Source of the DNA: a virus
Virus record (IMG/VR): IMGVR_UViG_3300045256_000135
Coordinates: 119,245-183,244 of that record
DNA length: 64,000 bases
Reading direction: 5' to 3' (one strand)
The position numbers were made by a program, and so were the translations under genes. Positions 18,041 to 58,252 of the stretch are shown here, one piece after another. The stretch's first letter is position 1; every line of letters begins with the position of its first letter. Below the pieces are notes generated by a model that searched no databases, was not told where the DNA came from, and saw nothing but the letters and a program-made list of their open reading frames with translations.

Positions 18041-18047
18041 GTGAAGG

Positions 18048-22211: not shown

Positions 22212-22218
22212 GATCGAC

Positions 22219-22530: not shown

Positions 22531-22556
22531 GCTATATAGTTAGCTGTAGCATTCTG
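22519..22556 (+). other. Nested inverted repeats after the tail operon
   Basis: CAGAA and TTCTG arms enclose a second dyad (CTAA...TTAG around CTATATAG). This lies at the junction between the structural block and the early region. Without a U-run it is at best a weak terminator; the TATATAG core could also be part of a promoter. Confidence 0.25.
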
Positions 22557-22586
22557 ACTGTTCTAAGTCAATTTTCATCGAGCTCC

Positions 22587-22614
22587 TTGATTTGAGGCGA
22601 AACATCTTTATGAT
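22587..22614 (+). promoter_or_regulatory. Early-type promoter, copy 1
   Basis: The -35 is TTGATT and the -10 is TATGAT, with a 16-nt spacer. It is preceded by TTCATCGAGCTCC, which is shared with other copies. The predicted start of transcription falls at or next to the ATG at 22622, giving the lipoprotein mRNA a leader of at most about 12 nt. Confidence 0.75.
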
Positions 22615-22633
22615 GAACGTTATGGAGGCCACG

Positions 22634-32227: not shown

Positions 32228-32463
32228 CAAAGAGAAAGAATCCTCTCGAAGGCGTCACGATTCGCTATGGCAGTATGACCTTCAAAGTAACGAAAGGTCA
32301 ACCAGTCCCTGAAGAGCAGATGGTCGATCTAGCACGCGAGTACAACCAAGAGAAGGTGTTTCGAAGCTGCGACTATTGTGGAGTCAAGATCCTGGTCAGT
32401 CGAGGCAACATGGGACCTTCTGGCACATACTGCATGAACTGTCTTGCGGCAAGCTCAATGTAG
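32224..32463 (+). CDS. Zinc-ribbon-like small protein
   Basis: A 79-residue protein. The N-terminal half is a small beta region; the C-terminal half has CDYCG and CMNC about 20 residues apart, a standard zinc ribbon. The ATG at 32224 overlaps the previous stop. The function is unknown. Confidence 0.65.
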   Translation: MTKRKNPLEGVTIRYGSMTFKVTKGQPVPEEQMVDLAREYNQEKVFRSCDYCGVKILVSRGNMGPSGTYCMNCLAASSM

Positions 32464-32471
32464 GTGAGATC

Positions 32472-32963
32472 ATGATTCGAATGTTCAACGGTAAGTTCAG
32501 CTTCTTGTCCAACTTCCACCCGTCACAAATCAAGATCTGGAACATGACGTTCCCAACAGTCGAGAACGCGCACCAAGCGCGGAAGACTCTCGATTGGAGC
32601 TTGCGCGAGACCTTTCAAGCAATGACACCTGGCCAGGCAAAACGTGCTGGACGAAAGCTCGCAATGGCTCCAGGCTTTGACGGGATCAAAGTCGACCACA
32701 TGCGTACATGTCTCCGTCGGAAATTCCTGATTCCAGAGCTTCGCAGGCAGCTTGAAGAAACAGGGCAACTTCGTCTCGAAGAGGGCAATACTTGGGGTGA
32801 TCGGTTCTGGGGAGTATGTCAAACTGGGCCGCTGACTTGGACTGGTGCCAACAATCTGGGGCTCTTGCTCATGGAGGTTCGTAAGGATCTTCAGACAGGT
32901 AAGTTCAAGGAGTGGGAAGAGTTTCTCGCTAAAGATTCTGAGGCGATCTATGGGAATTCGTGA
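32472..32963 (+). CDS. NADAR domain protein (YbiA-like, ADP-ribose N-glycosidase family)
   Basis: A 163-residue protein covering essentially one NADAR domain. Visible motifs: FSFLSNFHPS, FPTVENAHQARK (equivalent of the EHxxQAxK motif), the basic MRTCLRRKF helix, and the C-terminal EGNTWGDRFWGV with GLLLMEVRKDL. The family includes enzymes that act on ADP-ribosylated substrates and riboflavin intermediates; several reverse guanine ADP-ribosylation. No riboflavin gene is nearby, which favours an ADP-ribose role. The ATG at 32472 is chosen because the domain starts there. Confidence 0.85.
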   Translation: MIRMFNGKFSFLSNFHPSQIKIWNMTFPTVENAHQARKTLDWSLRETFQAMTPGQAKRAGRKLAMAPGFDGIKVDHMRTCLRRKFLIPELRRQLEETGQLRLEEGNTWGDRFWGVCQTGPLTWTGANNLGLLLMEVRKDLQTGKFKEWEEFLAKDSEAIYGNS

Positions 32964-42260: not shown

Positions 42261-43160
42261 ATGGACAAAAGCATTCTGGGTGAGTCATTCTTTGCACGGT
42301 TGGAAAAACAAGACAAAGAGTATGGAGAACAGGTCAGACGGTGGAGTCCCAAGGTCAACTTTCTCTCGTTTCAATTGCGGAAGTTGACTCATGAGCCGTT
42401 GCAGGACATCGTCAGTGAGTTTCTCGAGAAGATGTGGGTGGATGTTCAAGCGTTTCGAACACCACAGGTACGCTACGAAAAGAAGATCTACACGGTCTTG
42501 TCTGAGGACAATGGTCAGTTGCATCTTCGAAGAAGTGGTGTTGATCGAATCGTAGACAAGACTCTGATAGAGACGGTAAAGAAGCCGTCGATGTTCACAT
42601 ACGTATACGCGGGTATCGTGCAGTACTACTGCGACCGGTGCTCGCGTATGTTCACGTCAAAGAATGGCTATGTGGTAGATCCAGAGAAGCCATCATCCGA
42701 GGTGACGGTGGTCACCAAGCTAAAGCGTCAAGTGAAGACGAAGACGTTCCCAAACTACGTCAGAGTCGCTGGCATTCGAGCAAACATCATCAGTGACGAT
42801 GTGGATCTGGATCCACTGGACACTGTTCCGAATGAGTTGGGCACTCCTGAAGACCAGTTGGTGTACTGCGAACTTGTTGAGTTTGTTCGAGAGCGTTTGT
42901 CTGATCCAGCAAAGGAGCTGTTTAGCTTTCTGTTGCAAGAGAACGACGACTTCTCCACCCAGTCATCTCTGGTAATTCTAAATCATCAGACGCAGAAGCT
43001 GCAGGTTCCCATCATCAAAGCTGATAGGTCGTCTGCTGCGAAGTTTCTGCAGAAGTCTGCTGTTGACATCAAGCAGCTGTTCAACGAGATCATCTCGGCA
43101 TTTCCAGTGAGCTTTAAGGTGTTCGACCAGTTCAATCTCGCGACTAAGGGAGTTGTATGA
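42261..43160 (+). CDS. Putative divergent sigma-70-like factor
   Basis: A 299-residue protein. Residues about 30-65 (VNFLSFQLRKLTHEPLQDIVSEFLEKMW) fit sigma region 2.1-2.2 (helix, acidic patch). An insert with CDRC near residue 125 may bind zinc. The C-terminal half (EDQLVYCELVEFVRERLSDPAKELFSFLL, then a helix-rich segment) fits region 4. The ATG at 42261 has AGGGAG 3 nt upstream; the longer TTG start is less likely. It overlaps the clamp start. The similarity is by eye; another helical DNA-binding protein is possible. Confidence 0.4.
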   Translation: MDKSILGESFFARLEKQDKEYGEQVRRWSPKVNFLSFQLRKLTHEPLQDIVSEFLEKMWVDVQAFRTPQVRYEKKIYTVLSEDNGQLHLRRSGVDRIVDKTLIETVKKPSMFTYVYAGIVQYYCDRCSRMFTSKNGYVVDPEKPSSEVTVVTKLKRQVKTKTFPNYVRVAGIRANIISDDVDLDPLDTVPNELGTPEDQLVYCELVEFVRERLSDPAKELFSFLLQENDDFSTQSSLVILNHQTQKLQVPIIKADRSSAAKFLQKSAVDIKQLFNEIISAFPVSFKVFDQFNLATKGVV

Positions 43161-44383
43161 AGTTCTCAATCCTCGCTGATGTGCTTCGCCCACAGTTGAA
43201 CCGTTGCGCAAAGGTCGCAACTTTCGATACTGCGAATAGCAAATCTGGTGGCTTGAAGCCTATCTACGGTTACGTCCAATTGTCGGTAGACAACATGCTA
43301 CTGACAATGCGAGCTCAAGATCCCACGCTGCATTTCGAAGCTAGGGCAATTGTTTCGGCGATCGATTCACCCGGATCAGCTCTGGTTGAGTGTGATCGTC
43401 TGGTAAGCATCCTGAAAACAAGAGTCGACGGCTATCCGATCACGATGTGGGTGGAGGGTGAATTTCTCCATCTCAAGCAGGGTGAGTTTCAAGCCAAACT
43501 GCCTCTGCTAAAGAATGAAGAGATCCCTTCGTTGAACTTAGAGCAGCAGTACGACTTCAAGTTCGATTTCGAGCCCAAGATTCTCGAGTATACAAAGCGT
43601 TGCGGCAGTGTAGTCGAGGACGAGAAGTCTGATTCACCATTCAAGGGATTGCTATTCGACTTGTCGGAACAGGGTGTTCTTCGATTGGCTGGTTTGTCTT
43701 CTAGCCTTTGCCACATTGCTAGGTTCACCCTCCCTAACCATACCGAGAAGGACTTGATGAGGGTTGCAGTACCATTCAGAGCACTTCCATTGATTGAATC
43801 CCTGTCGGGTAATCTGCCGATGACGTTGGGTATCAACAAGCTTGATGGTCGTGTCTGCATCTCCTCTTCTGAATGCTCTATGAGCATTCGTTGCATCGAG
43901 GACACGTATCCGAAGACTTACGTTCAGTTTCTCGGATTTCATCGACAGGCGGAACACGTGTACCCATTGGCTAAGCTAGACGCTGATGGGAACATTGTGG
44001 CTGAGCAAACTAGAAACTGGATCAGGTTCAATCGCAACGACTTTCTGAACGCTCTGACATCCGCTTCTTGTCTCCTTGGCAAAGAGGACAATGCTGTTGA
44101 GTTGTCGATTAAGCAGAAGTTGCCAGATGGCAGGTTCATCGTTCAGCTAACAGGTTTGAATCGTTTCACTAAGGCTACGGCAGTAGAGAAGATTCTTGCT
44201 GACTCTGATCTGCCAGGTCTGTTGACGATAGGTCTGCATTTCGGGAAGCTGAAAGAGGCGCTTCGTCTCATGACTGAGGACACGTTCACAATGCTGGTTA
44301 TCGACAAGAATACTCCGGTAGTGCTTGTTGAGGACAAGCAGCAAGTGATGGCTAGTGTTAATGTTCCGCTGAGGTTGAGCTGA
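43157..44383 (+). CDS. dnaN: DNA polymerase III beta-type sliding clamp
   Basis: A 408-residue protein, near the bacterial length of about 370, with three repeated beta-rich domains: KFSILADVLRPQL, then RLVSILKTRVDGYPITMWVEGEFLHLKQGEFQAKLPLL, and RVAVPFRALPLIESLSGNLPMTLGINKLDGRVCI. Domain 3 extends to the end (VVLVEDKQQVMASVNVPLRL). It tethers the polymerase; the DnaX-like loader is encoded at 58851. The gene overlaps both neighbours by a few bases. Confidence 0.85.
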   Translation: MKFSILADVLRPQLNRCAKVATFDTANSKSGGLKPIYGYVQLSVDNMLLTMRAQDPTLHFEARAIVSAIDSPGSALVECDRLVSILKTRVDGYPITMWVEGEFLHLKQGEFQAKLPLLKNEEIPSLNLEQQYDFKFDFEPKILEYTKRCGSVVEDEKSDSPFKGLLFDLSEQGVLRLAGLSSSLCHIARFTLPNHTEKDLMRVAVPFRALPLIESLSGNLPMTLGINKLDGRVCISSSECSMSIRCIEDTYPKTYVQFLGFHRQAEHVYPLAKLDADGNIVAEQTRNWIRFNRNDFLNALTSASCLLGKEDNAVELSIKQKLPDGRFIVQLTGLNRFTKATAVEKILADSDLPGLLTIGLHFGKLKEALRLMTEDTFTMLVIDKNTPVVLVEDKQQVMASVNVPLRLS

Positions 44384-44929: not shown

Positions 44930-45409
44930 ATGCAAACAGTCACTGCTACTCGTCGCCTCGAGTTCGATTCAGCACACCGCTTGGTTCATCACAAGTCAAA
45001 GTGTGGAGCTCTGCATGGTCACAGATACCGGGTGGATGTGACCTGTGTCGCTCCAATTCTGTCAGATGGTATGGTGATCGATTTCTCTACCACCAAGGCA
45101 GTGTTTGGTTCGTGGCTTGACAGTGAGTTAGATCACACTGCGATTCTCAATGCGGAGGATAAGCAACTGATCGAAGTTGTGAACTTGGTGCATGCGAATG
45201 CTGGGAAGAAGCCAGTGCACGTAGTCAACTTTGAGCCAACCTCCGAGAATCTTGCTTTCTACTTTCAAGAGAAGGCGCAGGAGCTTCTCGAACCACACCG
45301 GGTGGTGGTATCAAGGGTTCGAGTGTTTGAGACGCCGAACTGCTGGTCCGACTCGGAGGTAAGTAGTTTGGTGTTGAACAAACTACTCTCTTCTATCATC
45401 AATCGGTGA
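44930..45409 (+). CDS. queD: 6-carboxy-5,6,7,8-tetrahydropterin synthase
   Basis: A 159-residue enzyme of the PTPS family. Zinc ligands His16, His29 and His31 (FDSAHRL, ALHGHRY), catalytic Cys25, the ELDHTAIL motif and the C-terminal substrate-binding Glu in FETPNCW are visible. It converts dihydroneopterin triphosphate to carboxy-tetrahydropterin, the second step of preQ0 synthesis. It sits directly before queE and in the same cluster as FolE and QueC, all of which it needs. Confidence 0.93.
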   Translation: MQTVTATRRLEFDSAHRLVHHKSKCGALHGHRYRVDVTCVAPILSDGMVIDFSTTKAVFGSWLDSELDHTAILNAEDKQLIEVVNLVHANAGKKPVHVVNFEPTSENLAFYFQEKAQELLEPHRVVVSRVRVFETPNCWSDSEVSSLVLNKLLSSIINR

Positions 45410-45413
45410 TCGA

Positions 45414-46142
45414 ATGACAGCTAAGTCTTCACTCCCTATTGCTTCTAGCAGTCTGGTGGTGCCAGTCACCGAATGCTACACAGATGTTCTGCAGGGCGAG
45501 GGGCCATCTGCTGGAACGTTCTGTTCGTTTTTAAGATTCACTGGATGTCACCGCTCATGCGACTGGTGTGATTCAACTCACACTTGGAAGAAGGGCGAGA
45601 TTCAGACAACCAAGCTGTCGTTGAGCAGCTTGTACGATACCCTGCACAAAGGGCGAGCAAGAAAGTTAGTCCTAACCGGTGGCGAACCACTGCTGCACCA
45701 AGATAAGCCCTACTTCAAAGAGCTGCTGAAGTGGCCAGGTTGGCAGTTCGAGATCGAGACAGAGGGAACGTTTGCTCCATCGCAACAGCTCCAAGAGCTT
45801 GCTGATGACTTTATTCTGAGGGTGAACTGCTCTCCGAAACTGTCGCACGCGGGCATGGGGGATTTGTCTGCAACCTATAAGCAGAGTTTGCCACGACTAC
45901 TCGAAATGCCTCTGACAATCCTGAAGTTTGTTGTCCGAAATGAAGCAGATGTTCAAGAGGCATGGGACCTGGCTTACGAGGTAGGTGCTAGCACTGCACA
46001 GGTCTACCTTATGCCAGAAGGGCAGACAAAGCAGGGACAGATTGATGCGATTGAAACTGTGTATGACTTGGCTGTGAAGTATGGGTTGAACTTCATGCCA
46101 AGACTACACGTGCTAAGGTGGGATAAGAAGAAGGGTGTGTAG
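45414..46142 (+). CDS. queE: 7-carboxy-7-deazaguanine synthase
   Basis: A 242-residue radical SAM enzyme. CHRSCDWCD gives the cluster-binding Cys45, Cys49 and Cys52 (C-x3-C-x2-C). VLQGEGPSAGTFCSFLRFTGC precedes it, and LTGGEPLLH (SAM-binding) follows. It rearranges carboxy-tetrahydropterin to CDG, the third step of preQ0 synthesis. It starts 4 nt after queD. Confidence 0.93.
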   Translation: MTAKSSLPIASSSLVVPVTECYTDVLQGEGPSAGTFCSFLRFTGCHRSCDWCDSTHTWKKGEIQTTKLSLSSLYDTLHKGRARKLVLTGGEPLLHQDKPYFKELLKWPGWQFEIETEGTFAPSQQLQELADDFILRVNCSPKLSHAGMGDLSATYKQSLPRLLEMPLTILKFVVRNEADVQEAWDLAYEVGASTAQVYLMPEGQTKQGQIDAIETVYDLAVKYGLNFMPRLHVLRWDKKKGV

Positions 46143-46154
46143 GTAATTCAACCT

Positions 46155-46553
46155 ATGGATCTCTTCCCTGTAGTGTTCTCAGTCTCTGACTTTACGGAGA
46201 CATACACACCAGATCCGGTACAGACGCCAGTCTCACCCGCCTCCCACGAACGAATCTGTGATGTGGGGTTTCGATGTGAGTTTTGTTTGCGAATGTATCG
46301 TGTGAGTTTTACGGGAGGTGAGTGGCACTTTCCTGTGGAACAGGTATTTGTTACCAAAACTGGGCTTGAAGCGAGTCGGTGGGGCGGTGGTGATCCAGTT
46401 TGGCGGTGCCAGATTTGCGCTGCTAACGGTAGGTTAGTGACACGGTCTGGAATGATCACAGTGCCTCCAAAGGTTCCAGAAGCTACCGCCTCGGACGTCA
46501 AAAACAGAATTGGTAACACTGTCTTCTCAAAGGTTCAGTCGATAAAATGGTGA
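46155..46553 (+). CDS. Zinc-ribbon-like hypothetical protein
   Basis: A 132-residue protein with CEFC and CQIC about 50 residues apart, a zinc-ribbon-like spacing, and Trp-rich loops between them. It is located in the deazaguanine cluster, but no link to the pathway is evident. Confidence 0.6.
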   Translation: MDLFPVVFSVSDFTETYTPDPVQTPVSPASHERICDVGFRCEFCLRMYRVSFTGGEWHFPVEQVFVTKTGLEASRWGGGDPVWRCQICAANGRLVTRSGMITVPPKVPEATASDVKNRIGNTVFSKVQSIKW

Positions 46554-46557
46554 CCAG

Positions 46558-47316
46558 ATGAGTTTCGTGCCGAAAATCGCTCCGAAAATCCCTCTTTCTC
46601 TCCCAGTGTTGCAGGAGGTGAATGCGTTCTCAAGACTAAACTTGGAGCCATCACGGACTGCGACAACCGCCTGCTTTTCGAATCCAGTGATGGATGCGTT
46701 CCTTTGCCATCCGTCTGACGAGAATGCAAAGAGCCCGAACCCGAACGATCCATACTGCGCCATTCACTGGATCTGCAAGGTGTACTTTGCGGCTCGTTTG
46801 GGTGTTGGAATCCCAGAGGGTGGCACGTATGATTTCGAGAAGTCTAAGAACTACGCTAGAAAGCTAACGTACTCAGGACTCGTCAAAGCGATCAAGGCCA
46901 AGCTAAAGGGCGAGCCAGAGCCGGCTGGACTCGAACTTGAAGCGGTTGCTGAAGCTACCGAGGAAGACAAGAAGATTCTCGAAGAGAAGAAGGCTGAAGA
47001 ACCTGCTAAGAAGGTGGTTGCCCCAAAGCAAGCTCCTAGTACTAAGGTAGCATCTCCACCCAAGGTAGAGACAAAGCCAGAAACGGCTAATGGTAGTCCA
47101 GCTCCTTCCACAGGATCAGTTCCTGCAGCTTATCAACCAGGATCCATGGGTCACTTCATCCTGTCGCAACTTCAAACCACTACCACGGTTGAGAAGCTGT
47201 GGGCCTTGGTTGAGGCGAAAGGGTGGAAGTCGAAGCCACGGTTTGATAAGCAGCTTGCTGCTATGACGACTGAGGGTAGAATCAAGATCGACGGTGGTAA
47301 CGTCTCAGCTTCGTGA
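46558..47316 (+). CDS. Hypothetical protein with Pro/Lys-rich linker
   Basis: A 252-residue protein. The N-terminal domain (to about residue 120) has an AFLCHP/CAIHWIC pattern; residues about 125-190 are a Glu/Lys/Pro/Ala linker; the C-terminal 55 residues (GHFILSQLQTTTTVEKLWALVEAKGWKSKPRFDKQLAAMTTEGRI) look like a small winged-helix-type domain. The function is unknown. Confidence 0.55.
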   Translation: MSFVPKIAPKIPLSLPVLQEVNAFSRLNLEPSRTATTACFSNPVMDAFLCHPSDENAKSPNPNDPYCAIHWICKVYFAARLGVGIPEGGTYDFEKSKNYARKLTYSGLVKAIKAKLKGEPEPAGLELEAVAEATEEDKKILEEKKAEEPAKKVVAPKQAPSTKVASPPKVETKPETANGSPAPSTGSVPAAYQPGSMGHFILSQLQTTTTVEKLWALVEAKGWKSKPRFDKQLAAMTTEGRIKIDGGNVSAS

Positions 47317-47324
47317 GGTGAACT

Positions 47325-47615
47325 ATGCGATTCGGTGACGCTCTGAACATTCTCAAGTCTGGCGGGAGAGTGGCTCGTGGTGGGTGGAACGGGAAGGACA
47401 TGTTTCTGTTTATGGTGAACCCCACGCCAGCTGAAGATGCTGATTCAATTGGTGTTTCATTGCCGAATAGTGTACGCGATCTTTGGGACCTGCCACAACT
47501 TCCGTTTCTGTGTATGAAAACTGCTCAGAACACAATCAATGTTGGGTGGCTGGCAAGTCAGACTGATATGCTAGCTGAGGACTGGATGGAAGTTCAGCCT
47601 CCAGCAAAGGGTTGA
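47325..47615 (+). CDS. DUF2829 protein, Tad2-like (anti-Thoeris)
   Basis: A 96-residue protein matching DUF2829 along its length: MRFGDALNILKSGGRVARGGWNGKDMFLFM at the start, and CMKTAQNTINVGWLASQTDMLAEDW near the end. Tad2, the characterised member, sequesters the gcADPR signal of Thoeris defence. Whether this copy binds the same ligand is not known. It is the third ADP-ribose-related gene in the window and lies inside the DNA-modification cluster. Confidence 0.85.
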   Translation: MRFGDALNILKSGGRVARGGWNGKDMFLFMVNPTPAEDADSIGVSLPNSVRDLWDLPQLPFLCMKTAQNTINVGWLASQTDMLAEDWMEVQPPAKG

Positions 47616-47632
47616 CAGGTACAAGGACGAGC

Positions 47633-48883
47633 ATGAACCAAAGACTAATTGAGTCTGGGCCACACGCTGGCAAACCCGCACTGACAAAGGCTGAGATCCT
47701 CTTCACTCGTCGATGCCCTCTGCGTTGTGCTGGCTGCGCAATGTACCGAGTGGACGAGAAAGGTCGATCTGCCAATGACAGGTCGGATCGTGAAGAAGCT
47801 CCGATGGATCGATGGTTCGCAACTATCGACAATCTGAAAGAGCTTGGGTGTGGGTTCATGGCGATCTATGGCGCTGAGCCAGCCCAGGTACCAGAACGCA
47901 CTGCACAGTTCGTGAACTACGCGACCACTGTGGGGATTCCAAACAGTGTAATCACATCAGGCGTTGGACTTGACGAGCAGATGCTTGATTATTGGTGGGA
48001 CAACAAGCTGTACTCACTGACGATGTCAGTTGACGCTCTTGTAGATAGCATCGCCGAGCAAGCGTCTAACAAGTCAAGCAAGATCAAGACCGACCGAGCG
48101 TACCGGTTTCTGACTTACTTCATCGACAAGTACGGAAAGCGTCCAGAGTTTCGTGATGTCGAAGCCTGCATGACACTGACGCGGAAGAATTTCCGCGCCC
48201 TGCCAGAGTTGATTGAAGCGCTCTCAGCTAAGGGCATCTGGCTTCACTGGGACCTTGTACATGCCAATCGTGGGCAACCGTACAGCAAGGTAGAAACGGT
48301 CGAAGACATCGCAGAGCTTTCGTTCCGTCCAGAGGATCAGCTGGAGCTTCGATCCGTGCTTGAACAGGTTAAGAGTCTCAAGAAGAAGGGTTGCCTGATT
48401 CATCCTAGCAGTGCAGCCATCGATATGATGAGCTCCGACGATGGGTTAGCCTACAAGTGGCAGTGCATGAAGCTTCCCAAGGAGGAGTTCATTGGCATGG
48501 TCACACTCGATGTGAATTGTGTTGTCCGAGTTTGTGACGACTTTCACCCACCTGAGATGGACGTGCCTTTGGATCATAGGACTGTTAGTCCTGAGCGCAT
48601 GGGGCTGAGTGTTAGCAAGGGAAAGTTGCGATTGCCACAACTAATTGGCACGTATGCTTTGGAGAGACTAGAAGCTGAAGAGCGGGCGAACATCAAGAGT
48701 GACCCAGTCTTCGGTTGGGAGTTATCAGCTCGCTGGGAAGAGTACAAGCAGCGTGCTAGGGATATGGTCCGCAAGTACGATTGTAGATGCTCTTGGGCAA
48801 CCCACATGGACGCAGAGAACATCTACAATGGGGTGGGTACTGACTTGGAGCACTACATTCACAAGAAGGTGGCGGATCTATGA
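47633..48883 (+). CDS. Radical SAM protein of unknown substrate
   Basis: A 416-residue protein. RRCPLRCAGC gives Cys28, Cys32 and Cys35 (C-x3-C-x2-C) for a [4Fe-4S] cluster. The TIM-barrel-like core extends to about residue 250; further Cys occur late (C in KWQCMK, RVCDD, and CRC at about 380), resembling a SPASM-type auxiliary cluster region. The ATG at 47633 has AAGGACG upstream; the TTG at 47612 is rejected. It sits between QueE and QueC genes but is not part of the standard preQ0 route, so it may tailor the 7-deazaguanine side chain. Confidence 0.8.
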   Translation: MNQRLIESGPHAGKPALTKAEILFTRRCPLRCAGCAMYRVDEKGRSANDRSDREEAPMDRWFATIDNLKELGCGFMAIYGAEPAQVPERTAQFVNYATTVGIPNSVITSGVGLDEQMLDYWWDNKLYSLTMSVDALVDSIAEQASNKSSKIKTDRAYRFLTYFIDKYGKRPEFRDVEACMTLTRKNFRALPELIEALSAKGIWLHWDLVHANRGQPYSKVETVEDIAELSFRPEDQLELRSVLEQVKSLKKKGCLIHPSSAAIDMMSSDDGLAYKWQCMKLPKEEFIGMVTLDVNCVVRVCDDFHPPEMDVPLDHRTVSPERMGLSVSKGKLRLPQLIGTYALERLEAEERANIKSDPVFGWELSARWEEYKQRARDMVRKYDCRCSWATHMDAENIYNGVGTDLEHYIHKKVADL

Positions 48884-49464
48884 CAAAGCTTGCTGAGCAA
48901 CTCCAAGTGCTGCTTGATTTGTTGGTTAAGACGGATCAAAGCCTCGGAAGGCCATCGATTAGACTTAATCGACAGGACTTGACAGCTATAGCTGAACTCG
49001 CTAAGGGCGACGACTTTCCCTACTGGGATGCAGTTACTAGACGCGAACTGATCCGTGAGGGCTGGATCGCAACGTATCGGCGAACAGACAGAGAAGTTGA
49101 CGTTTACTTGCCGAGGGTACGTATGGCGAACGATCCAGAGAACGAGGACTCGTGGCCACTCCCTGGGCAGTTTGTGGTGCAGTTTGACAGAGAGCGTCCG
49201 TCCACATCCCACCCGCAATCTAAGCCAACGGCATCTCACCTAGAGAAGGGTATGTCTGTTGTCTTGCGTTGCACTGGTGACGCTATGCTCGACGGCAGGC
49301 AGGGTGTGATTGTGAGTAACGAGATCCTTGCGGAATCCCTCCACCCTGCTCTCCAGGGTAGAGGCTCGTTTCGGAATGTGCATGTACGCGATAGTTCGAG
49401 AGAGCCACAGTTGGATCAGGTGTTTTGCATTCGAGAGAGCGAACTAGAGGTGAAGAATGTGTAG
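48880..49464 (+). CDS. Hypothetical protein in deazaguanine cluster
   Basis: A 194-residue protein, helical in the first half, with a beta-rich C-terminal half (MSVVLRCTGDAMLDGRQGVIVSNEIL). It overlaps the radical SAM gene by ATGA and the QueC fusion by 8 nt, so it is probably co-expressed with them. No family is recognised. Confidence 0.6.
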   Translation: MTKLAEQLQVLLDLLVKTDQSLGRPSIRLNRQDLTAIAELAKGDDFPYWDAVTRRELIREGWIATYRRTDREVDVYLPRVRMANDPENEDSWPLPGQFVVQFDRERPSTSHPQSKPTASHLEKGMSVVLRCTGDAMLDGRQGVIVSNEILAESLHPALQGRGSFRNVHVRDSSREPQLDQVFCIRESELEVKNV

Positions 49465-51085
49465 CATTTTCGGAGCGGTTGTTTGGCTGGCACACGACTA
49501 CGCTCCAGTGGTCGAACATCTCACGCGGCTGGCTGTGGCCGGCGAGGATCGAGGACGAGACGGGGTTGGCATTGCAATCCTGAATCGAGGGACACACGAA
49601 CCAAAACTGTTCCTCAGCTCTCTGACTGCGTCTGACTGCGTTGACGGTATCCGACGGTTCTTGAAAGAGTTCGTGACAGGCCCATGCATTGTTGTCGGGA
49701 ACAACCGCTACCAGCCGATGCCTCAGCCAGACTCCACCGAATCTACCGCTCGTCAGCCAATCGTTGCAGCGCACTGCATCGGCACACACAACGGTACGTT
49801 TCCCGAGGATGACTTGCTGAACTCGAAGTACAACTTTGAGTCGGTGACCGGCATCGATTCTGAGGTGCTCTTGCACCTCTACCGCCACAAGAGTCGAACT
49901 ATAACGACATCGATTCCACAGTCGATCGCACACCGGGCAAGATTCATTGAGTCGGCTCTTGCAGAGCTTGCTGGAGGGTTTGCGTTTGGATTGGTCGATC
50001 TTGAACACCCAGACGAACTGCATCTGTTCCGAAACTTCAAGCCGCTGAACCTTGCGTACCGCAGAAACATGATTGAGGACGTTCTGTACTTCGGCTCTGA
50101 GAAGAAAGCCCTGCTACAAGCGTTCGACATCAAGCTGAGCGCGTCTGGGCTGTTCGACACACAGATGAAGTTTACCCAGCTGCCACCCTACTCAGGGATG
50201 TCGTTCAGCCTTGTGAATCGTGAGATTCACGAGTGGAAGGCAGAGAACAAGATCCTTGCGCATCTGCCAGCAGCTAAGGGCAAGCAGAAGGCCTTGGTGA
50301 TCTGCTCGGGTGGCATGGATAGCTCGCTAGCAGCAGCCGTAGCTCGTAAGGTGGAAGGTTGCGATGTGAACCTCCTTCACATGGATTACGGACAGCATGC
50401 CAAAGATAGAGAGCGTGAGGCCGTCAAGGCAGTAGCCAAAGCCTTGGATTGCCAGTACACATTCGTGGATGCCAAGACGATTGGGGAGTGGCATCCTGGC
50501 AGTCCGTTGACGAACGCTGATATTCCAGATGGCATGCGAAGTGCTGAGTCCACTCTGTGCTGGGTAGCTGCTCGGAACATGGTGTTCTTGACGATGGCTG
50601 CGGCGTATGCTGAGAGCCAAGGGTACCAGTTCATCTACAGCGGGTTCAATCTCGAAGAGTCGGGTAGCTACCCTGACAATACGATTGAGTTCTTCAGACG
50701 GTTTGACGATGTCTGCGAGTTCGGAACACTGACTCGCATCAAGACGAGGTTGTCAGTAGCTCGAATGATGAAGCCAGACATCATTCGACTTGCCCATCAT
50801 CTGGGAGTGCCGATGGGGCACACTTGGAGTTGTGATAGCGCCGGGTTTGTGCTTTCGGATCACCCGCAGTACGGGAACATTTCGGACGATCGAGATCGTG
50901 TTCCCTGCGGGAAATGCGGTTGCTGCTGGACACGACGAATTGCGTACAAGAAAGCTGGGATCGAGGATCCGCAAGGTTACGCATCTGACTTCGTAGGTCC
51001 GGTGCCTGAGTGGTACAAGACTGACAAGTTCAAGCGACCAACGGCCACGATCGAGCAACTGCTTGAAGAGGTTCAGAAGCGCTAA
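49457..51085 (+). CDS. Glutamine amidotransferase-QueC fusion (Gat-QueC)
   Basis: A 542-residue two-domain protein. The first 270 residues are a class II (Ntn) glutamine amidotransferase with the nucleophile Cys2 in MCSIFGA and typical GEDRGRDGVGIAI. The second domain is QueC: PP-loop CSGGMDSS (about residues 282-289), DYGQH, ARNMVFLTMAAAYAES, and zinc-binding PCGKCGCC (about 483-490). QueC turns CDG into preQ0 through an amide intermediate using ammonia; the fused amidotransferase could supply it from glutamine. Some phages with 7-amido-7-deazaguanine DNA carry such fusions, so the product could be the amide or preQ0. Confidence 0.88.
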   Translation: MCSIFGAVVWLAHDYAPVVEHLTRLAVAGEDRGRDGVGIAILNRGTHEPKLFLSSLTASDCVDGIRRFLKEFVTGPCIVVGNNRYQPMPQPDSTESTARQPIVAAHCIGTHNGTFPEDDLLNSKYNFESVTGIDSEVLLHLYRHKSRTITTSIPQSIAHRARFIESALAELAGGFAFGLVDLEHPDELHLFRNFKPLNLAYRRNMIEDVLYFGSEKKALLQAFDIKLSASGLFDTQMKFTQLPPYSGMSFSLVNREIHEWKAENKILAHLPAAKGKQKALVICSGGMDSSLAAAVARKVEGCDVNLLHMDYGQHAKDREREAVKAVAKALDCQYTFVDAKTIGEWHPGSPLTNADIPDGMRSAESTLCWVAARNMVFLTMAAAYAESQGYQFIYSGFNLEESGSYPDNTIEFFRRFDDVCEFGTLTRIKTRLSVARMMKPDIIRLAHHLGVPMGHTWSCDSAGFVLSDHPQYGNISDDRDRVPCGKCGCCWTRRIAYKKAGIEDPQGYASDFVGPVPEWYKTDKFKRPTATIEQLLEEVQKR

Positions 51086-51333
51086 TGAGTGCAGGTAGAG
51101 TTTACCGTCAGGCTTTCGCTAGACCAACTTCCGATCAGCTGAAGAGCCTCAGGGAATTCTTCGCCAGAAACGGAAAGCGCATTGGCTGCAAGATGCTCGG
51201 TGTTTCTGAAGTAACTATTGGTATAATTCTTGGAGGCGGTGATTCCAAACAAGCCACGCTTACGCGACTCTTCGCTAACTTGAGCAAGATCGAAAAAGGG
51301 CCAGAACAGGTTTCGACGGAGGAGACGAGCTAA
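51085..51333 (+). CDS. HTH-like small protein overlapping tmRNA
   Basis: An 82-residue protein with a helix-turn-helix-like core (AFARPTSDQLKSLREFF, KMLGVSEVTIGIIL). It overlaps the Gat-QueC stop by one base. Its last 12 codons coincide with the 5' end of the tmRNA, so transcription or processing of the RNA and translation of this gene must compete or be separated in time. It may be a regulator; the function is unknown. Confidence 0.55.
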   Translation: MSAGRVYRQAFARPTSDQLKSLREFFARNGKRIGCKMLGVSEVTIGIILGGGDSKQATLTRLFANLSKIEKGPEQVSTEETS

Positions 51334-51656
51334 CATTGCGCACACCAGCTCTCCTTGTAACTGGTCAAGTACAGGGAACGTCATCTGCGAACGACAACGT
51401 GGAACTCTCGGAAGCCGCGGAAGCGGCCTGAGACGGGTGATCCAGAGAAGCTCTGGTATGGTGATCCTGCAAACCACAAGAGCGGGCAGCTGGAAAGACA
51501 GCATACGTGGCCCAGGACACGGTCTAAACACAGGGTGGTGGAAGCTGCCGGTTTTACCGGTTCGCCCCTGAGGTGCTACAGCTCTACTGTAGATACTGTG
51601 CGTAGATGGTGTTAGTGAAGCTCTTTCGGACCCGGGTTCGATTCCCGGCTGGTCCA
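51298..51656 (+). ncRNA. ssrA: Phage-encoded tmRNA
   Basis: 359-nt transfer-messenger RNA that rescues stalled ribosomes. The acceptor stem is GGGCCAG (51298-51304) paired with CTGGTCC (51649-51655), including the G3-U70 pair recognised by alanyl-tRNA synthetase, and discriminator A at 51656. The 5' end continues GGTTTCGACGG, the conserved tmRNA D-loop. The T arm is CCGGG-TTCGATT-CCCGG (51632-51648), preceded by TTTCGGAC. The tag reading frame begins at GCG 51387 and encodes ANDNVELSEAAEAA, stop 51429-51431, with a hairpin over its end. CCA is not encoded (CTA follows), so host CCA addition is needed. Pseudoknots were not modelled. Confidence 0.9.
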
Positions 51657-51684
51657 CTAGTGGTAAATGTTGTGAGAGGAAGAG

Positions 51685-52491
51685 ATGACAGCGTACATTT
51701 GCTGCAGTGGTGGGATGGATTCAATCATTGGCTGGTTCTATCTTTCAACCAACAACCCAGTTGTCCCACTGTATGCTAGATTAGGTCATCGCTACCAGTC
51801 ACAAGAGCTTGAAGCATTAGAGCACATCCAGCACTTGTTATCATTGTTGCCAACTCGATTCCCCTTCAAGTTTGAGCAATCAATGGCACTCGGTGCGTAT
51901 GGTAAGAACTATGAGCAGAGTGACGCAAATATTCCAGCAAGGAATCTGCTCTTAGCTGTTGAAGCAGCTAACCGAGGTGCTACTGAAATAGCCATTGTTT
52001 GTCAAGCAGATGAGCGAACGCTTCCGGACAGAAACGAGATGTTCTTCAAGAGAAGTTCCGATCTGCTCTCCCAACTGTACGAGAAGCACGTTCGCGTAAG
52101 CCCTGTGTTCCAAGAATGGGACAAGACCGATATGGTCAATTGGTTCCTTGACACGCATGACCTCGATTTGTCGTATCAAGACAGAGTCAATGTTTTGCTT
52201 GCCACTACTGCTTGTTACCAGCCAGTTGAAATTGACAAGAAGCATCAACAGTGTGGTAACTGTCCTGCGTGCTTTAGACGAGCAGTGGCTCTGATTAACA
52301 ATGGTCTAACTGAAACGTATGCTCAGAACGTGTTTGAATCAGATGTGGCGCGAGAGTACCTTGACAAGCTCGGGCGTTACTCTGTTCTGCGTCAGAAGCG
52401 GACTGTGATGGCTTTGTACAAGTCGGGGAGTTCGTTGTACAAGCAGGCTTTGAAGTTGACCCAAGATCAACGTTCACTGGAGTCAAGATGA
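51685..52491 (+). CDS. Second QueC-like PP-loop protein
   Basis: A 268-residue protein, close to QueC in length but more distant than the fusion at 49457. It has the ATP-binding PP-loop SGGMDS (residues 8-13), ANIPARNLLL, DERTLPDRNEMFFK, and a zinc site CGNCPACFRR (about 190-199) with an upstream Cys. It probably adenylates a 7-deazaguanine carboxylate or related group. With two QueC-type proteins the phage could make two different 7-substituents, or the two act in succession. Confidence 0.75.
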   Translation: MTAYICCSGGMDSIIGWFYLSTNNPVVPLYARLGHRYQSQELEALEHIQHLLSLLPTRFPFKFEQSMALGAYGKNYEQSDANIPARNLLLAVEAANRGATEIAIVCQADERTLPDRNEMFFKRSSDLLSQLYEKHVRVSPVFQEWDKTDMVNWFLDTHDLDLSYQDRVNVLLATTACYQPVEIDKKHQQCGNCPACFRRAVALINNGLTETYAQNVFESDVAREYLDKLGRYSVLRQKRTVMALYKSGSSLYKQALKLTQDQRSLESR

Positions 52492-53102
52492 AGCTGAACT
52501 ATATGGCAGGCACAGTGATTGAGTTGGGGTCCGTGCATGTTGACTGTTGGATCCCACCGTTTGTTGAACACGGTTGGTCTAAGGTTTGGGAAGGCTGCTG
52601 GGAGGGTCCTGTCCTCGGAGTACAAGAAGCAAAGCCTACGCGATACTACAAAATGCAACACCCCAATGACTTGAGCATGATTCAAGCTGCAACAGTAGAC
52701 GAGATCTACTCTGCCCACGCTATGGAGCATCTCAGTCCAAACAATGCGTACACGATTCTTGGCGAATTTCAGAGGGTGCTGAAGCCTGGCGGGAAGATGC
52801 ATCATGTCACACCCGACTTTGATTCGATGGTCAAACTCTGGAACGACATGTCCAATGTCTACAACACAGAGCTCGGGGCGTTCGACTACGAGCGTTACAT
52901 CACTATCTGTAACGGGGTGCTATGCCCATGGGACGGAGTAATGGCAAACTACCCAGGGCACAAGAGTCTTTGGGGCGTTGATGTGGCTCAGTTCCTGCTC
53001 AAGCGCTGGGGGTTTGAAGACACGTTTGCAAAAGTTGAGGGGACTGATCTGCACTTCGGTGGGTCGACTCCCAAGGGCATCTACAACATGATCAGGGCGT
53101 GA
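52488..53102 (+). CDS. SAM-dependent methyltransferase-like protein
   Basis: A 204-residue class I methyltransferase-like protein. VIELGS near residue 12 is a reduced motif I; AHAMEHLSP (about 80-88) and GEFQRVLKPGGKMHHVTPDF are the typical motif IV-V region. The glycine-rich SAM loop is short, so SAM binding is likely but not certain. Located between a QueC-like gene and DpdA, it may methylate the modified base or a precursor. It overlaps the previous stop by ATGA. Confidence 0.65.
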   Translation: MKLNYMAGTVIELGSVHVDCWIPPFVEHGWSKVWEGCWEGPVLGVQEAKPTRYYKMQHPNDLSMIQAATVDEIYSAHAMEHLSPNNAYTILGEFQRVLKPGGKMHHVTPDFDSMVKLWNDMSNVYNTELGAFDYERYITICNGVLCPWDGVMANYPGHKSLWGVDVAQFLLKRWGFEDTFAKVEGTDLHFGGSTPKGIYNMIRA

Positions 53103-53104
53103 AC

Positions 53105-53362
53105 ATGCTAGCTGTTTTCTACGCTTGCGGAGATGGTGATCACCACTACATGCTCACAGCTGATGAGGCTGGGGCTAGACGGATGTACACCGAGCTGATC
53201 AATGACGATCCGGAGGCACTCGAGGACATGGTGTTTAAGCAGTTGCCACCTGATCGCCCTTTGACGTTGTTGGACGAGGCTGGACTAGAAGCTACCCGAA
53301 CCTGTGCTGAATGGGCAGTGGGCAAGGTTGAACCAGAGCTGCTTGGAAGCACGTGTGCATGA
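53105..53362 (+). CDS. Hypothetical small acidic protein
   Basis: An 85-residue protein. The ATG at 53105 is preferred over GTG 53099 because AGGG lies 7 nt before it. The sequence is acidic with no motif. It overlaps the DpdA start (ATGA), implying co-translation. Confidence 0.6.
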   Translation: MLAVFYACGDGDHHYMLTADEAGARRMYTELINDDPEALEDMVFKQLPPDRPLTLLDEAGLEATRTCAEWAVGKVEPELLGSTCA

Positions 53363-55206
53363 CCATGGAACAGAAGATTGGGCGCAGTATTTGGTTTCCG
53401 GTGATGTTCTTCTCTGCAGAGCGGGAGATGAGGGACAAACCCTTGCTCCTGGGGAAGCCTCACTCGTTCTGGACTCATTGGTACAAAGAGCAGTCGGTCT
53501 TCTACCACCCCGCGCTGTTGTTGAACGCGTTCACCTCTCGAGCAGAAGGTGACAAACGACATGATCTGAACATTGGACCGGATACCAGGGTTCTGATTGA
53601 CTCTGGTGGGTTTCAGTTGTACAAGCAGACTGTGATTCAGGGAAAGACCCTGAACATTCAGCCCATTGAGATCTTGCGGACGCAAGAGCTTTGGGGAGAC
53701 GGTCCCAATGACGCAGCATTCATCATCGACTATCCAGTTGGTGCTGATGACAATGATGACATGTTTGACTTTTGCTTGAAAGAAACTGAGAAGAATTGTC
53801 AGTTCTATCAAGACAACATGAAGTCAAACACACTCCGGATGCTGAACGTTTTGCATGGTCACACCATGGAACGAATCAAAGTCTGGTACGACCTTTTTCA
53901 CAAGTTCAAGTACAACGGAAGGACCGGTTGGTCAGTCGGCTTTCATCCCAGCTCAGATGTGATGAATCAGGCACGCATGTTTGCGTTTATCTGGTCACAA
54001 CAGACTGAGTCTGAACCGCTGAACTACTTCCACTTTCTTGGTGTTTCGGGATGGAACACCATGCCATTACTCGTATACGCTTCGCGCTTTTGCGATGAGG
54101 TGGTCTTCGACTCGTCCAGCTATGGGGCTGGTTACAAGACGAAGACATACATGGTTCCACCAGATGTGGATCGTGGTGGCGATGTAGTGTTTGGTGACCA
54201 GATCCAAAGCTGGCATGAGTTGGTAAACCCACCATGCAATTGTCCGGTATGCATCGTTGTTCGTGATTCTGGTAAAACGTTTCCAGAGGCGATGCTAGAC
54301 TCGAATGGTGGTGGCCATCTCATTAGCCTCCACAACATGTTTCAGTACATTGATCGCAGTCGAAAGCTACACGCTTTGGTTGCTGATAAAGAACGCTACT
54401 TGAAGTATGTCAAGTCGCATTGCTCTGATGAGGCATTGCTAGCAATTCTGTATCTTGATGAAGTCAAACGCAGTGGATTCGAGATCGCTACAAGAGAGTT
54501 CGGGCGTTACTTCAAACGGCTGCATGAGAATCAGTTGACCACCACCTTCGGATCGATGTTTCAAACGTCGGGTTTGGGCAAGATCAAGGAGAAGGATGCT
54601 ATTCGGAAACCAGCGGATCCGAACAAGCAGAGGAAGCGTGGTCGAAAGAAGAAGGGTGAACCTGAGTCAGTTGTTGGGGAGGCTCTCGCTGAGGAGAAGG
54701 TGGAGCTAGTCCAAGCACCCCCAGCGGAGCTAGAGTCCTCGAGCAAGCTTTCAGTTCTCGACTCTCTGCCTGAAGTGGAAGTTGATCCAGCAGTCCTTGA
54801 TTCGGATCTTGGCAAGGCAGCGATGGCATCCATGTTTGAAGATTCGGATGTGATTGTGACGAGTGTTGCGGTTGAGTCTAATTCACCGGACATAGTCGTG
54901 CCAGAAGTTCAGCCATCAGCAAAGGTGTTGTCAGAATTCAGTTTGTCAGGTGTTACAACTGGTCGAGTTCAGACTGCATTCCCTAACACTTCAGCTCTCC
55001 CACGCGAACAGAAGCAGCGACAGAAGAAGGTAAAAGAAGCTCCTAAACTCTTGGAATTGCCTGAACTATCAGAGGTTGTTCATCTTGATGTAATTCAGTC
55101 AAAGCCAGAGTGCTACGGTCAATTCGAAGCTGAAGTGTGTGATGGAAGCTTTTGTGGACAGTGGTTACAGCCCTGTTCACAGGACACGAAAAAGGAAGAC
55201 AAATGA
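53359..55206 (+). CDS. dpdA: DpdA-like DNA guanine transglycosylase with C-terminal extension
   Basis: A 615-residue protein. The first 400 residues follow the TGT fold: LIDSGGFQLYK (about 77-87), the probable nucleophile/base Asp in AFIIDYP (about 122-128), GWSVGFHPSS, and the zinc site CNCPVC (residues 293-298) with His about 30 residues later. TGT-like phage proteins of this kind (DpdA) exchange guanine in DNA for a 7-deazaguanine base. Residues about 415-615 are a low-complexity extension, first basic (KQRKRGRKKKGE) then acidic/Ser-rich, absent from typical TGTs. All genes to make the substrate lie upstream or next to it. Confidence 0.82.
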   Translation: MTMEQKIGRSIWFPVMFFSAEREMRDKPLLLGKPHSFWTHWYKEQSVFYHPALLLNAFTSRAEGDKRHDLNIGPDTRVLIDSGGFQLYKQTVIQGKTLNIQPIEILRTQELWGDGPNDAAFIIDYPVGADDNDDMFDFCLKETEKNCQFYQDNMKSNTLRMLNVLHGHTMERIKVWYDLFHKFKYNGRTGWSVGFHPSSDVMNQARMFAFIWSQQTESEPLNYFHFLGVSGWNTMPLLVYASRFCDEVVFDSSSYGAGYKTKTYMVPPDVDRGGDVVFGDQIQSWHELVNPPCNCPVCIVVRDSGKTFPEAMLDSNGGGHLISLHNMFQYIDRSRKLHALVADKERYLKYVKSHCSDEALLAILYLDEVKRSGFEIATREFGRYFKRLHENQLTTTFGSMFQTSGLGKIKEKDAIRKPADPNKQRKRGRKKKGEPESVVGEALAEEKVELVQAPPAELESSSKLSVLDSLPEVEVDPAVLDSDLGKAAMASMFEDSDVIVTSVAVESNSPDIVVPEVQPSAKVLSEFSLSGVTTGRVQTAFPNTSALPREQKQRQKKVKEAPKLLELPELSEVVHLDVIQSKPECYGQFEAEVCDGSFCGQWLQPCSQDTKKEDK

Positions 55207-55835
55207 GCAAGCCGGACGAAAACGAGATCAAGGGCCCAGTGTACAAGCGCAAGCAAATCGAAGCTGGCGTCCGCCAGATGCTTCAAGGGCTTGGTGTAGA
55301 TCTCAACGATGAGAATTTTGCTGAAACACCAGCTCGTGTAGCAAAAGCATACATTGAGATGTGCTCAGGTCTGTACACTTCCGAGAAGAAGGCAGAGGAG
55401 ATCTTCGGAAAGAAGTTCAGGTCTTCGTACAAGGGTATGATCGTTGTTGGTCCAATTTCGGCAGCTGGAGTTTGTCCGCATCATTTGCTTCCAGTGCACA
55501 TGACCGCAGTGCTCGCGTATATCTCTGACGCAAAAGATGGCTACAAGCTCGGGCTGTCAAAGCTAGCGAGAGCATTTAGACTGTACGCAAACCGCCCGAT
55601 GATGCAGGAATCCATTTCGCATGACCTGGTTGAGGCTTTCGAGAAGTACACCAAGTGCTCGGGGGTGGGTTTGTGGATCAACGGACGCCACTCTTGTATG
55701 TCTGCACGAGGCGTACTTGCACATGAATCAGCTGCAATCACCCAGGACGTTCGTGGGTTGTTTGAGACTGATCCTGGTGTGAAGACTGAGTTCGCTGAGC
55801 AGATTCGTCATCTTACTGAACGGGTGCGTAGATGA
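55203..55835 (+). CDS. folE: GTP cyclohydrolase I
   Basis: A 210-residue enzyme. The zinc site CPHHLLPVH (about 90-98), GLSKLARAFRLYANRPMMQES, and the C-terminal CMSARGV (second zinc Cys) are all present. It opens GTP to dihydroneopterin triphosphate, the first step for both folate and preQ0. It overlaps the DpdA stop by ATGA. It completes the FolE-QueD-QueE-QueC pathway within 11 kb. Confidence 0.93.
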   Translation: MSKPDENEIKGPVYKRKQIEAGVRQMLQGLGVDLNDENFAETPARVAKAYIEMCSGLYTSEKKAEEIFGKKFRSSYKGMIVVGPISAAGVCPHHLLPVHMTAVLAYISDAKDGYKLGLSKLARAFRLYANRPMMQESISHDLVEAFEKYTKCSGVGLWINGRHSCMSARGVLAHESAAITQDVRGLFETDPGVKTEFAEQIRHLTERVRR

Positions 55836-56071: not shown

Positions 56072-58252
56072 ATGCTTTTTTCGAACATTTCGGAGAGCTT
56101 GCTGCGAAAGAACTATGTTCTAGTGAGTTCTCCGAAACGTTTGCATTGGCTGTTTAGTCAGCTGAATGCAGCGTCAGAAGTCGCTGTTGACATCGAGACA
56201 AATCACCCTACCAAGGAGGGACATGCCCACGAGCTAGCGAGAAAAGACATTCGAATTGGTGGGTTATCTTTCTCATGGGGAAAGGACACCGGCGCGTTTG
56301 TACCGCTGCATTCAGGCTTGTCATCAGAACCGTATTGGAAGGGTGATACAGCAAATCTGGTTCTGACGCAACTCGAGAACTTTCTTGGTAGTGACACACC
56401 AAAGTTTGGCCAGAACTTCAAGTTCGATGCTCAGTGGTTGTTCAACTGCTACGGTATTCGTGTTCGAAATCTCGTTATGGACACGATGCTAGCACACCAC
56501 TTGCTTGATGAAGAGGGCAAACTTACATGCAGGCATGGTCTGAAGGTGATGGCTGCTTACTATCTCGACCCCAAGGCGAAAGTCTTTGAGCAAGAGCTAG
56601 ACGCAGCTTTGTCGTATTACGACGAGCGTTACAGACGCTACACTAGCGTACCATTAGAGATTCTGTACCCATATGCTTGCTCTGACACGGACTACACGTA
56701 TCAGTTAGCTCATATCTTCAAAGCACAGCTTGAGGAGCAGGGTTTGTACGATCTCTTGAAGTACATTGTGCTCCCACTTCAGCGAACGTGCATGTTTGCA
56801 GAGATTCGTGGGCTGAACCTTGACGACTCTAAGATTGAAGAACTAGCTATGTTCTTCAGCATCAAGCGAGAGGAGTTGAAGAACCAGATCTACACTCTGG
56901 CTGGTTACTCGTGGGATCTGACAAGTCCTCAGCAAATGGCTGACGTCCTGTATCAGAAGCTACAGTTGCCAGTGCAGATGAAGAAGGATAAGGTGACGAC
57001 TGATGCGGACTCCCTCGAGGCACTTAAGGACAAGCATCCAGCGATCAAGTTGATTCTCGAGTATCGCTCTGTTGATAAGCTCGATGGCACTTATGTACAA
57101 GGCGTAGTTAAGCGACGAGTACAAGACGAGCATGGCACCCGCATCTTTCCTTCATTTCTGCTGCATGGTACAAAGACTGGGCGATTGTCTTCGGAAGATC
57201 CGAACGTACAGAACTTGCCGAGAGCAGAGAATGGTGGTGATCTTGTCAAGAGCATGTACGTAGCTGCTCCTGGCACAAAGTGGATCATGTCGGACTACTC
57301 ACAGATTGAGTTGCGAGTGGCGGCACATCTCTCCAAAGAGATGGTGTGGATTGAAGCAATGAAAGCGGGGTTTGACGCACATTCGGCCACCGCTAAGCAG
57401 GTGTTCAATCTTGAGTGTGATGTAACAGAAGTGTCCAAGTTGCACAAACCACTCAGAACGAAAGCGAAGAGCGTTAACTTCGGCATTCTGTATGGTCAGA
57501 CTGAGTATGGACTTGCTGAGCAACTCGACATGGAAGTCGATGAAGCGGTGAAGTTCATCGAAGACTACTTCAAGGCACTTCCGACGCTTAAGAAGTGGAT
57601 TGATGACACCATTAGTCAGGCGAGAGTTTCGAAAGAGGTGGTTAATCTGTTCGGTCGAAAGCGTCGGTTTCCGGATTGGCCCGACTTCATTCCACCGAAG
57701 CCATGGAAGCCAGCTGGAGCTCCAAAGTGTTGGGGTAAGTCTGACGCACCACCCGTACTGAAAGTGCTAGGGATTGCTGGTAACGCTTTGCAGAACAATA
57801 TGCACGTGCTACAAGAGACTAAGCATCTGCAGTTGACTGTAGCGAACGAAGTTCGAAGCACCAAGTACGAACAATGCAAGACATGTCCGCTCATTGGGTC
57901 TTGTGTCCAGGCAAGAGAGGCTCAAAAGCAGAGCTCAATGGAGTCAGAGTTCGGCAGACAAGCTGTTAACGCTGTTGTTCAGGCAGGAGCCTCAGATCTA
58001 ACTTCGAGTGCTTTCAGCGCCGTGATTGACAACGCAGTCTCTGCTGGTATGCCCCTAGCTCTGAAGCCAGGAGAATTTGGTATCTCTCCAGTGCTTACGA
58101 TTCACGACGAGTTGGTGTTTCAGGTCTCGGACGAGTTGGTCGACCAGGCGAAGGTGCTGATTCGGGATACGATGGTAAACATCCACCCTGATCTCCTTGT
58201 TCCGTTGGAAGTTGACCAAGCGGTTGTCTCAAAGTGGAGTGACAAGGTTTAG
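56072..58252 (+). CDS. polA: Family A DNA polymerase (Pol I, 3'-5' exonuclease plus polymerase)
   Basis: A 726-residue protein. The N-terminal DnaQ-like exonuclease has VAVDIETN (Exo I), GQNFKFDAQWLF (Exo II) and CSDTDYTY (Exo III). The polymerase has motif A SDYSQIELRVAAH (about 406), motif B KAKSVNFGILYGQ (about 463-475, with Phe at the dNTP/ddNTP position) and motif C HDELVF (about 677). There is no 5' nuclease domain; the FEN protein at 28530 replaces it. About 70 extra residues between motifs B and C include CKTCPLIGSC. It is probably the replicative polymerase. Confidence 0.92.
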   Translation: MLFSNISESLLRKNYVLVSSPKRLHWLFSQLNAASEVAVDIETNHPTKEGHAHELARKDIRIGGLSFSWGKDTGAFVPLHSGLSSEPYWKGDTANLVLTQLENFLGSDTPKFGQNFKFDAQWLFNCYGIRVRNLVMDTMLAHHLLDEEGKLTCRHGLKVMAAYYLDPKAKVFEQELDAALSYYDERYRRYTSVPLEILYPYACSDTDYTYQLAHIFKAQLEEQGLYDLLKYIVLPLQRTCMFAEIRGLNLDDSKIEELAMFFSIKREELKNQIYTLAGYSWDLTSPQQMADVLYQKLQLPVQMKKDKVTTDADSLEALKDKHPAIKLILEYRSVDKLDGTYVQGVVKRRVQDEHGTRIFPSFLLHGTKTGRLSSEDPNVQNLPRAENGGDLVKSMYVAAPGTKWIMSDYSQIELRVAAHLSKEMVWIEAMKAGFDAHSATAKQVFNLECDVTEVSKLHKPLRTKAKSVNFGILYGQTEYGLAEQLDMEVDEAVKFIEDYFKALPTLKKWIDDTISQARVSKEVVNLFGRKRRFPDWPDFIPPKPWKPAGAPKCWGKSDAPPVLKVLGIAGNALQNNMHVLQETKHLQLTVANEVRSTKYEQCKTCPLIGSCVQAREAQKQSSMESEFGRQAVNAVVQAGASDLTSSAFSAVIDNAVSAGMPLALKPGEFGISPVLTIHDELVFQVSDELVDQAKVLIRDTMVNIHPDLLVPLEVDQAVVSKWSDKV

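Follow-up and report, generated by a model that had tools for sequence, protein, structure and literature searches.

A predicted 7-deazaguanine DNA-modification cluster with two QueC-type enzymes, an additional radical SAM protein and a methyltransferase-like protein in a large virus genome

A 183-kb record of an uncultured virus ends in a 64-kb stretch (G000:C1:119245-183244; hereafter the window, whose coordinates are used throughout) with a gene cluster that, by gene content, is a phage 7-deazaguanine system and that is novel in its gene combination. The best overall explanation of the cluster, to which we give a probability of about 0.6, is that a 7-deazaguanine is made, inserted into the phage DNA and tailored by a radical S-adenosylmethionine (SAM) protein and a methyltransferase-like protein. 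Judged from the genes present, a 7-deazaguanine in the phage DNA is very probable and a base beyond preQ0 (7-cyano-7-deazaguanine) is probable, while a base beyond G+ (the archaeosine base) is on balance doubtful. More tentative again is the proposal that an undescribed 7-deazaguanine arises through the joint action of a divergent QueC and a Gat-QueC, alteration by the radical SAM protein and methylation by the methyltransferase. Which base a phage carries is predicted mainly from its genes, and here the candidates form a short list open to testing; if a radical SAM enzyme did act on a 7-deazaguanine in DNA, the known chemistry would be widened.

The original prediction had listed FolE, QueD, QueE, Gat-QueC and a DpdA-like transglycosylase, and this list proved right as judged by family matches, by a profile of the tRNA-guanine transglycosylase (TGT) superfamily and by a collinear second contig (Table 1). 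The second QueC-like protein (QueC2), the radical SAM protein and the methyltransferase-like protein were likewise present, the last on a weak family match. FolE, QueD and QueE convert GTP to 7-carboxy-7-deazaguanine (CDG), the established chemistry of their families, and would be the source of CDG in this phage. In the pathway that we propose, Gat-QueC (glutaminase and PP-loop) and QueC2 would process CDG to 7-amido-7-deazaguanine (ADG), preQ0 or G+, with QueC2 performing the CDG activation step (to ADG or preQ0) and Gat-QueC supplying ammonia and carrying the base on to G+. DpdA, as its family suggests, would put the base in the place of guanine in the DNA of the phage itself, and the radical SAM protein and methyltransferase might tailor it before or after insertion. 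The final base would be G+ or a relative carrying a methyl group or some other decoration, and the exchange would most likely serve against restriction.

Gat-QueC is an N-terminal-Cys (Cys2) class II glutamine amidotransferase fused to a QueC domain. In alignment it retains the equivalents of Tyr35, Arg99 and Tyr131, and it is 28% identical (6e-44) to the Gat-QueC of Enterobacteria phage 9g, whose dG+ system has the same five activities (FolE, QueD, QueE, Gat-QueC and DpdA), the Gat-QueC fusion included. In contrast to the window, 9g has no second QueC annotated in the stretch that we covered and no match to the window radical SAM protein. Since the Gat-QueC and DpdA of 9g suffice for dG+ in E. 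coli (PMC6884629), the default product predicted by analogy from Gat-QueC is an archaeosine-type dG+ rather than preQ0, and anything beyond dG+ would rest on the two tailoring genes. It had been argued that genes not needed for preQ0 point to a new base. Synthesis and insertion of a 7-deazaguanine are well supported by the genes present, but the argument for a new base is weakened because Gat-QueC predicts dG+ and QueC2 may itself carry CDG to preQ0 or ADG.

QueC2 retains an SGGMDS ATP loop, IPARN, Lys147 and a Cys-Tyr...CGNCPAC zinc site, in common with the SGGxDS, the VPxRN-type motif and the Cys-Tyr plus CGxCxxC zinc site of E. coli QueC. Relative to the latter protein, YGQRH is changed to LGHRY and YPDC to LPDR or IPDR, the positions of Tyr35 and Tyr131 being Leu and Leu/Ile in both the window QueC2 and that of the second contig (G001, below). 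The Y35A and Y131A mutants of E. coli QueC are inactive (PMC13329287), and because two residues essential in that enzyme are lost, the substrate or product of QueC2 may differ from that of QueC. In some phages whose pathway is otherwise complete, however, a QueC protein without these "essential" tyrosines is the only one present. A QueC2-like protein is the sole PF06508 protein in BS162P1, NCTB and the viral contigs G002 and G003, each of which also has FolE and QueD; G002 and G003 were found with a QueC2 zinc-motif pattern, the scan with which gave two further viral contigs and none in genomes. In MT835482 the sole QueC has the same motif losses, and QueD is present, but the record yielded no FolE. 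The QueC2-like proteins of the Bacteroides-type phages (BS162P1, MT835482 and G002) share both the motif losses and the zinc and ATP motifs of the window QueC2, but there they are the only QueC, stand beside a DpdA1-type enzyme and are without a Gat-QueC; in BS162P1 and G002, QueE and DpdA1 adjoin the QueC2-like gene. Given that 7-deazaguanine phages exist whose one QueC is a relative with these losses, QueC2 probably still acts on CDG. Nor is a second QueC exotic in itself, since pairs of QueC or PP-loop enzymes are seen repeatedly in other large phages. GR7B and Illi-2 each encode a DpdA of the window's subgroup and two proteins of QueC type, none of them closely similar to QueC2. The recurrence of two QueC-type enzymes with this TGT subgroup in unrelated large phages speaks for a genuine division of tasks between them.

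The collinear relative of the cluster lies on a second virus contig of 152,626 bp (G001; its cluster coordinates are given on stretch L008). IMG/VR scans with single proteins and default patterns recovered only the relative of Gat-QueC, and scans based on alignments led to the same single contig. The cluster genes of G001 are in the same order at 38-61% identity, QueD excepted, which indicates that the gene set is more than chance. Identities are 61% for FolE, 52% for QueE, 54-57% for the radical SAM protein (57% to L008:7016-8224), 51-55% for Gat-QueC, 43-45% for QueC2, 38-49% for the methyltransferase and 39-44% for DpdA; the place of QueD is taken by a different PTPS-family (QueD-like) protein. 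Five small open reading frames (ORFs) are not kept in G001 (the Tad2-like ORF and those of 194, 82, 87 and 79 codons). Two further observations concern G001: a tRNA-Met gene lies between QueC2 and the methyltransferase, and an FkbM methyltransferase (L008:8234-8980) lies between the radical SAM protein and Gat-QueC, a site occupied in the window by a small, unrelated ORF.

The second radical SAM protein has a CxxxCxxC motif (C35, C39 and C42) and conserved C-terminal cysteines (C285, C303, C308, C391 and C393), which suggest an auxiliary-cluster domain. Compared with SPASM/Twitch domains, the cysteines are conserved, there is no Pfam SPASM match, and the structural model is of low confidence in that part. 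Sequence and this low-confidence model place the protein in its superfamily close to PqqE, BlsE and viperin, a position that reveals little of its substrate, and Foldseek on the poor model supported a radical SAM barrel and nothing further. Identity as a viperin was considered and rejected, the matches to viperin-type models being partial and QueE also giving weaker ones. No relative was found among GenBank phages at 1e-5 (the G001 homologue gave only partial matches there, E 0.003-0.03) or in GTDB genomes by a pattern scan of low sensitivity. No RaSEA-type model was among the NCBIfam matches of the radical SAM protein to 0.01, and ArcS-type PF17884 (DUF5591), QueF and Pfam TGT domains were not found in G000 or G001. 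The methyltransferase had no close relative in GenBank phages.

These two proteins are the real puzzles of the cluster, and a role for them in the base is something that we infer. Their only link to the pathway is their position in the operon and their retention in one related virus: the radical SAM protein, QueC2, the methyltransferase and DpdA persist in G001 at identities of up to 57%, 45%, 49% and 44%, respectively, while small neighbours turn over. As such, the radical SAM protein and methyltransferase favour a further-modified base. Several points weigh on the other side. A relative of the radical SAM protein is absent from ten other records, most of them with 7-deazaguanine genes, and among ten records searched relatives of the methyltransferase occur only in the window virus and G001, the family match of this protein being weak in itself. 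Co-retention of the two genes says little for a shared pathway because the replication region is collinear overall between both viruses: of the 59 ORFs of the window that were compared, most have a G001 match, largely in the same order. At the level of gene comparison, retention shows that the extra genes belong to the phage core, but not that the base is their target. In addition, DpdA shares little sequence identity with phage DpdA1 and resembles a presumed DpdA2 only in part.

The most serious competing explanation, credible though not the one that we favour, is an ordinary dG+ system, in which QueC2 would make preQ0, Gat-QueC would convert it to G+, DpdA would insert it, and the radical SAM protein and methyltransferase would be unrelated to the base. 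The sufficiency of Gat-QueC and DpdA of 9g in an E. coli host (PMC6884629) is consistent with this, as are the occurrence of QueC2 relatives as the only QueC elsewhere and the arrangement in Achromobacter phage Motura, where QueC and an AsnB-type amidotransferase form a pair next to DpdA. It does not account for the keeping of the radical SAM and methyltransferase genes, embedded in the operon, while adjoining small ORFs were lost, and it requires preQ0 synthesis by a QueC2 without two residues that are essential for this in the E. coli enzyme. That loss, on the substrate side and with the ATP loop and zinc site retained, would suit a QueC2 repurposed as a ligase, comparable to QatC or Cap9, whose product would be CDG joined to an amine or protein and not preQ0, and PF06508 proteins have been repurposed for protein deazaguanylation (PMC13329287). 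We consider such a ligase unlikely: QueC2 matches the QatC model weakly (a score of 19 against a cut-off of 280) and below QueC, no QatA/B/D or CD-NTase partner lies alongside among the genes scanned, and other 7-deazaguanine phages have a relative of QueC2 as their one QueC.

The assignment of the transglycosylase, on which insertion of the base into DNA would depend, comes from a profile, as the ORF alone had no Pfam TGT match. A profile of five proteins (window, G001, GR7B, PhiXhv-15 and Illi-2) found the archaeal archaeosine TGT (arcTGT; 1iq8) at 7.7e-12 together with many queuine TGTs. Invariant in the alignment are Asp83 (DSGGFQ), Asp253 (DSSS) and a zinc set C-x-C-x2-C...His (C295/C297/C300/H327), and on these signatures the window protein is a member of the TGT superfamily. 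Its closest relatives, at about 20-25% identity, form a subgroup in phages of about 200 kb (GR7B, Illi-2, PhiXhv, NCTB and Motura; phages of about 195-258 kb). The enzyme that had been called DpdA-like could be placed in this superfamily and subgroup, but not in the 9g-type DpdA1: the DpdA of 9g belongs to a different subfamily and does not resemble the window protein at the profile level (hhalign probability 0.4). A partial hhalign match (95.4, E 1.7e-8) was obtained to a protein of Vibrio phage R10Z (Schizotequatrovirus) encoded between QueF and FolE, which, from its position, we take to be a DpdA2 (nt-1 type). The AlphaFold models of the window DpdA and of the radical SAM protein were poor (mean pLDDT, the model's confidence score, 46), and Foldseek on the DpdA model returned nothing. 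DNA is the probable target in view of the neighbouring genes and phage precedent, and is only to be deduced in this way because the match stops at the catalytic domain of arcTGT. The closest solved relative being an archaeal tRNA enzyme that with Gat-QueC makes tRNA archaeosine (PMC6884629), an archaeosine-like tRNA pathway has to be weighed, but it is very improbable, as the match is limited to the catalytic part (arcTGT residues 69-362) and followed by a different Cys-rich C-terminal tail, the neighbours are a sliding clamp and a DNA polymerase, and the phage members studied in the same work modify DNA.

All of the named genes lie on the + strand within 44930-55835, between the sliding-clamp gene (43157-44383) and the DNA polymerase gene (56072-58252). 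Consecutive genes mostly overlap or nearly abut; the single large gap, of 351 bp, is the site of a transfer-messenger RNA (tmRNA) gene. QueC2 and the methyltransferase overlap by 4 bp, and the methyltransferase, orf87, DpdA and FolE overlap in series, FolE having an alternative start (ATG 55203) that may be the true one. Promoter and terminator scans gave nothing above chance level.

Table 1. Features of the cluster, in window coordinates
Feature	Position	Strand	Basis
QueD (6-carboxytetrahydropterin synthase)	44930..45409	+	PF01242 (PTPS) 6e-31; phrog_2389 QueD-like 3.3e-33
QueE (CDG synthase, radical SAM)	45414..46142	+	Radical_SAM 4.5e-8; phrog_2076 QueE-like 6e-49
Cys-rich conserved ORF without family	46155..46553	+	45% identity in G001, same place
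Conserved ORF, no family at E<=0.001	46558..47316	+	37% identity in G001
Tad2-like protein	47325..47615	+	PF11195 2.4e-23; absent from G001
Second radical SAM protein	47612..48883	+	PF04055 1.1e-10
Small non-conserved ORF overlapping its neighbours	48880..49464	+	no Pfam at E<=0.001; no G001 match
Gat-QueC	49457..51085	+	PF06508 (QueC) 2.9e-45; PF13537 (GATase_7) 7.7e-10
tmRNA gene	51298..51657	+	Rfam RF00023 79.2 bits; ARAGORN tag ANDNVELSEAAEAA
QueC2, stand-alone divergent QueC	51685..52491	+	PF06508 2.1e-15; alignments
Class I methyltransferase-like protein	52488..53102	+	Methyltransf_11 5.8e-5, weak
DpdA-like TGT-superfamily base transglycosylase	53353..55206	+	five-protein profile to arcTGT; conserved residues
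FolE (GTP cyclohydrolase I)	55152..55835	+	PF01227 3.3e-44

Absent from the earlier gene list were the tmRNA gene, the Tad2-like ORF and the two conserved ORFs without family. The tmRNA gene is complete, lies between Gat-QueC and QueC2 and has no part in base synthesis, and the Tad2-like (Thoeris anti-defence) ORF, which overlaps the radical SAM gene, is likely a passenger outside the base pathway. Elsewhere in the window are genes for a NADAR-domain protein (32376-32963) and an ADP-ribosylglycohydrolase (25010-25945), possibly a counter-defence against DNA ADP-ribosylation; in G001 the NADAR gene (L008:2716-3147) adjoins the cluster.

For additional enzymes that modify the 7-deazaguanine of phage DNA there is a precedent, likened here by description only, in the dPreQ1 methyltransferase DpdM, the formyltransferase DpdN and the decarboxylase DpdL reportedly described by Cui et al. 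in 2023. Among phages of the same DpdA subgroup, NCTB has a QueC2-like protein, and PhiXhv-12, like the window, has a Gat-QueC. GR7B differs in having a lysine-aminomutase-type radical SAM protein, an ArcS-like domain and a GNAT protein instead of the extra enzymes of the window. In this Vibrio phage (94554-103109; L032) two QueC genes, the ArcS-like DUF5591 protein and the lysine-aminomutase-type radical SAM protein occur together, the GNAT acetyltransferase being just beside, and the run may be a pathway for a lysine-decorated 7-deazaguanine. Pseudomonas phage Illi-2 (158652-161031; L033) has its two different QueC-like proteins amid genes without assignment and the DpdA of the same subgroup elsewhere in the genome, and Motura (16982-23200; L034) has QueD, QueC, the AsnB-type amidotransferase, TGT, QueE and FolE in a single run. 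In Xanthomonas phage PhiXhv-12 (L013), Gat-QueC lies near an annotated glycoside transferase, a deacetylase and a leucyl/phenylalanyl-tRNA-protein transferase. A DpdA1-type enzyme at L004:9659-11857 is split by an intein with a LAGLIDADG domain.

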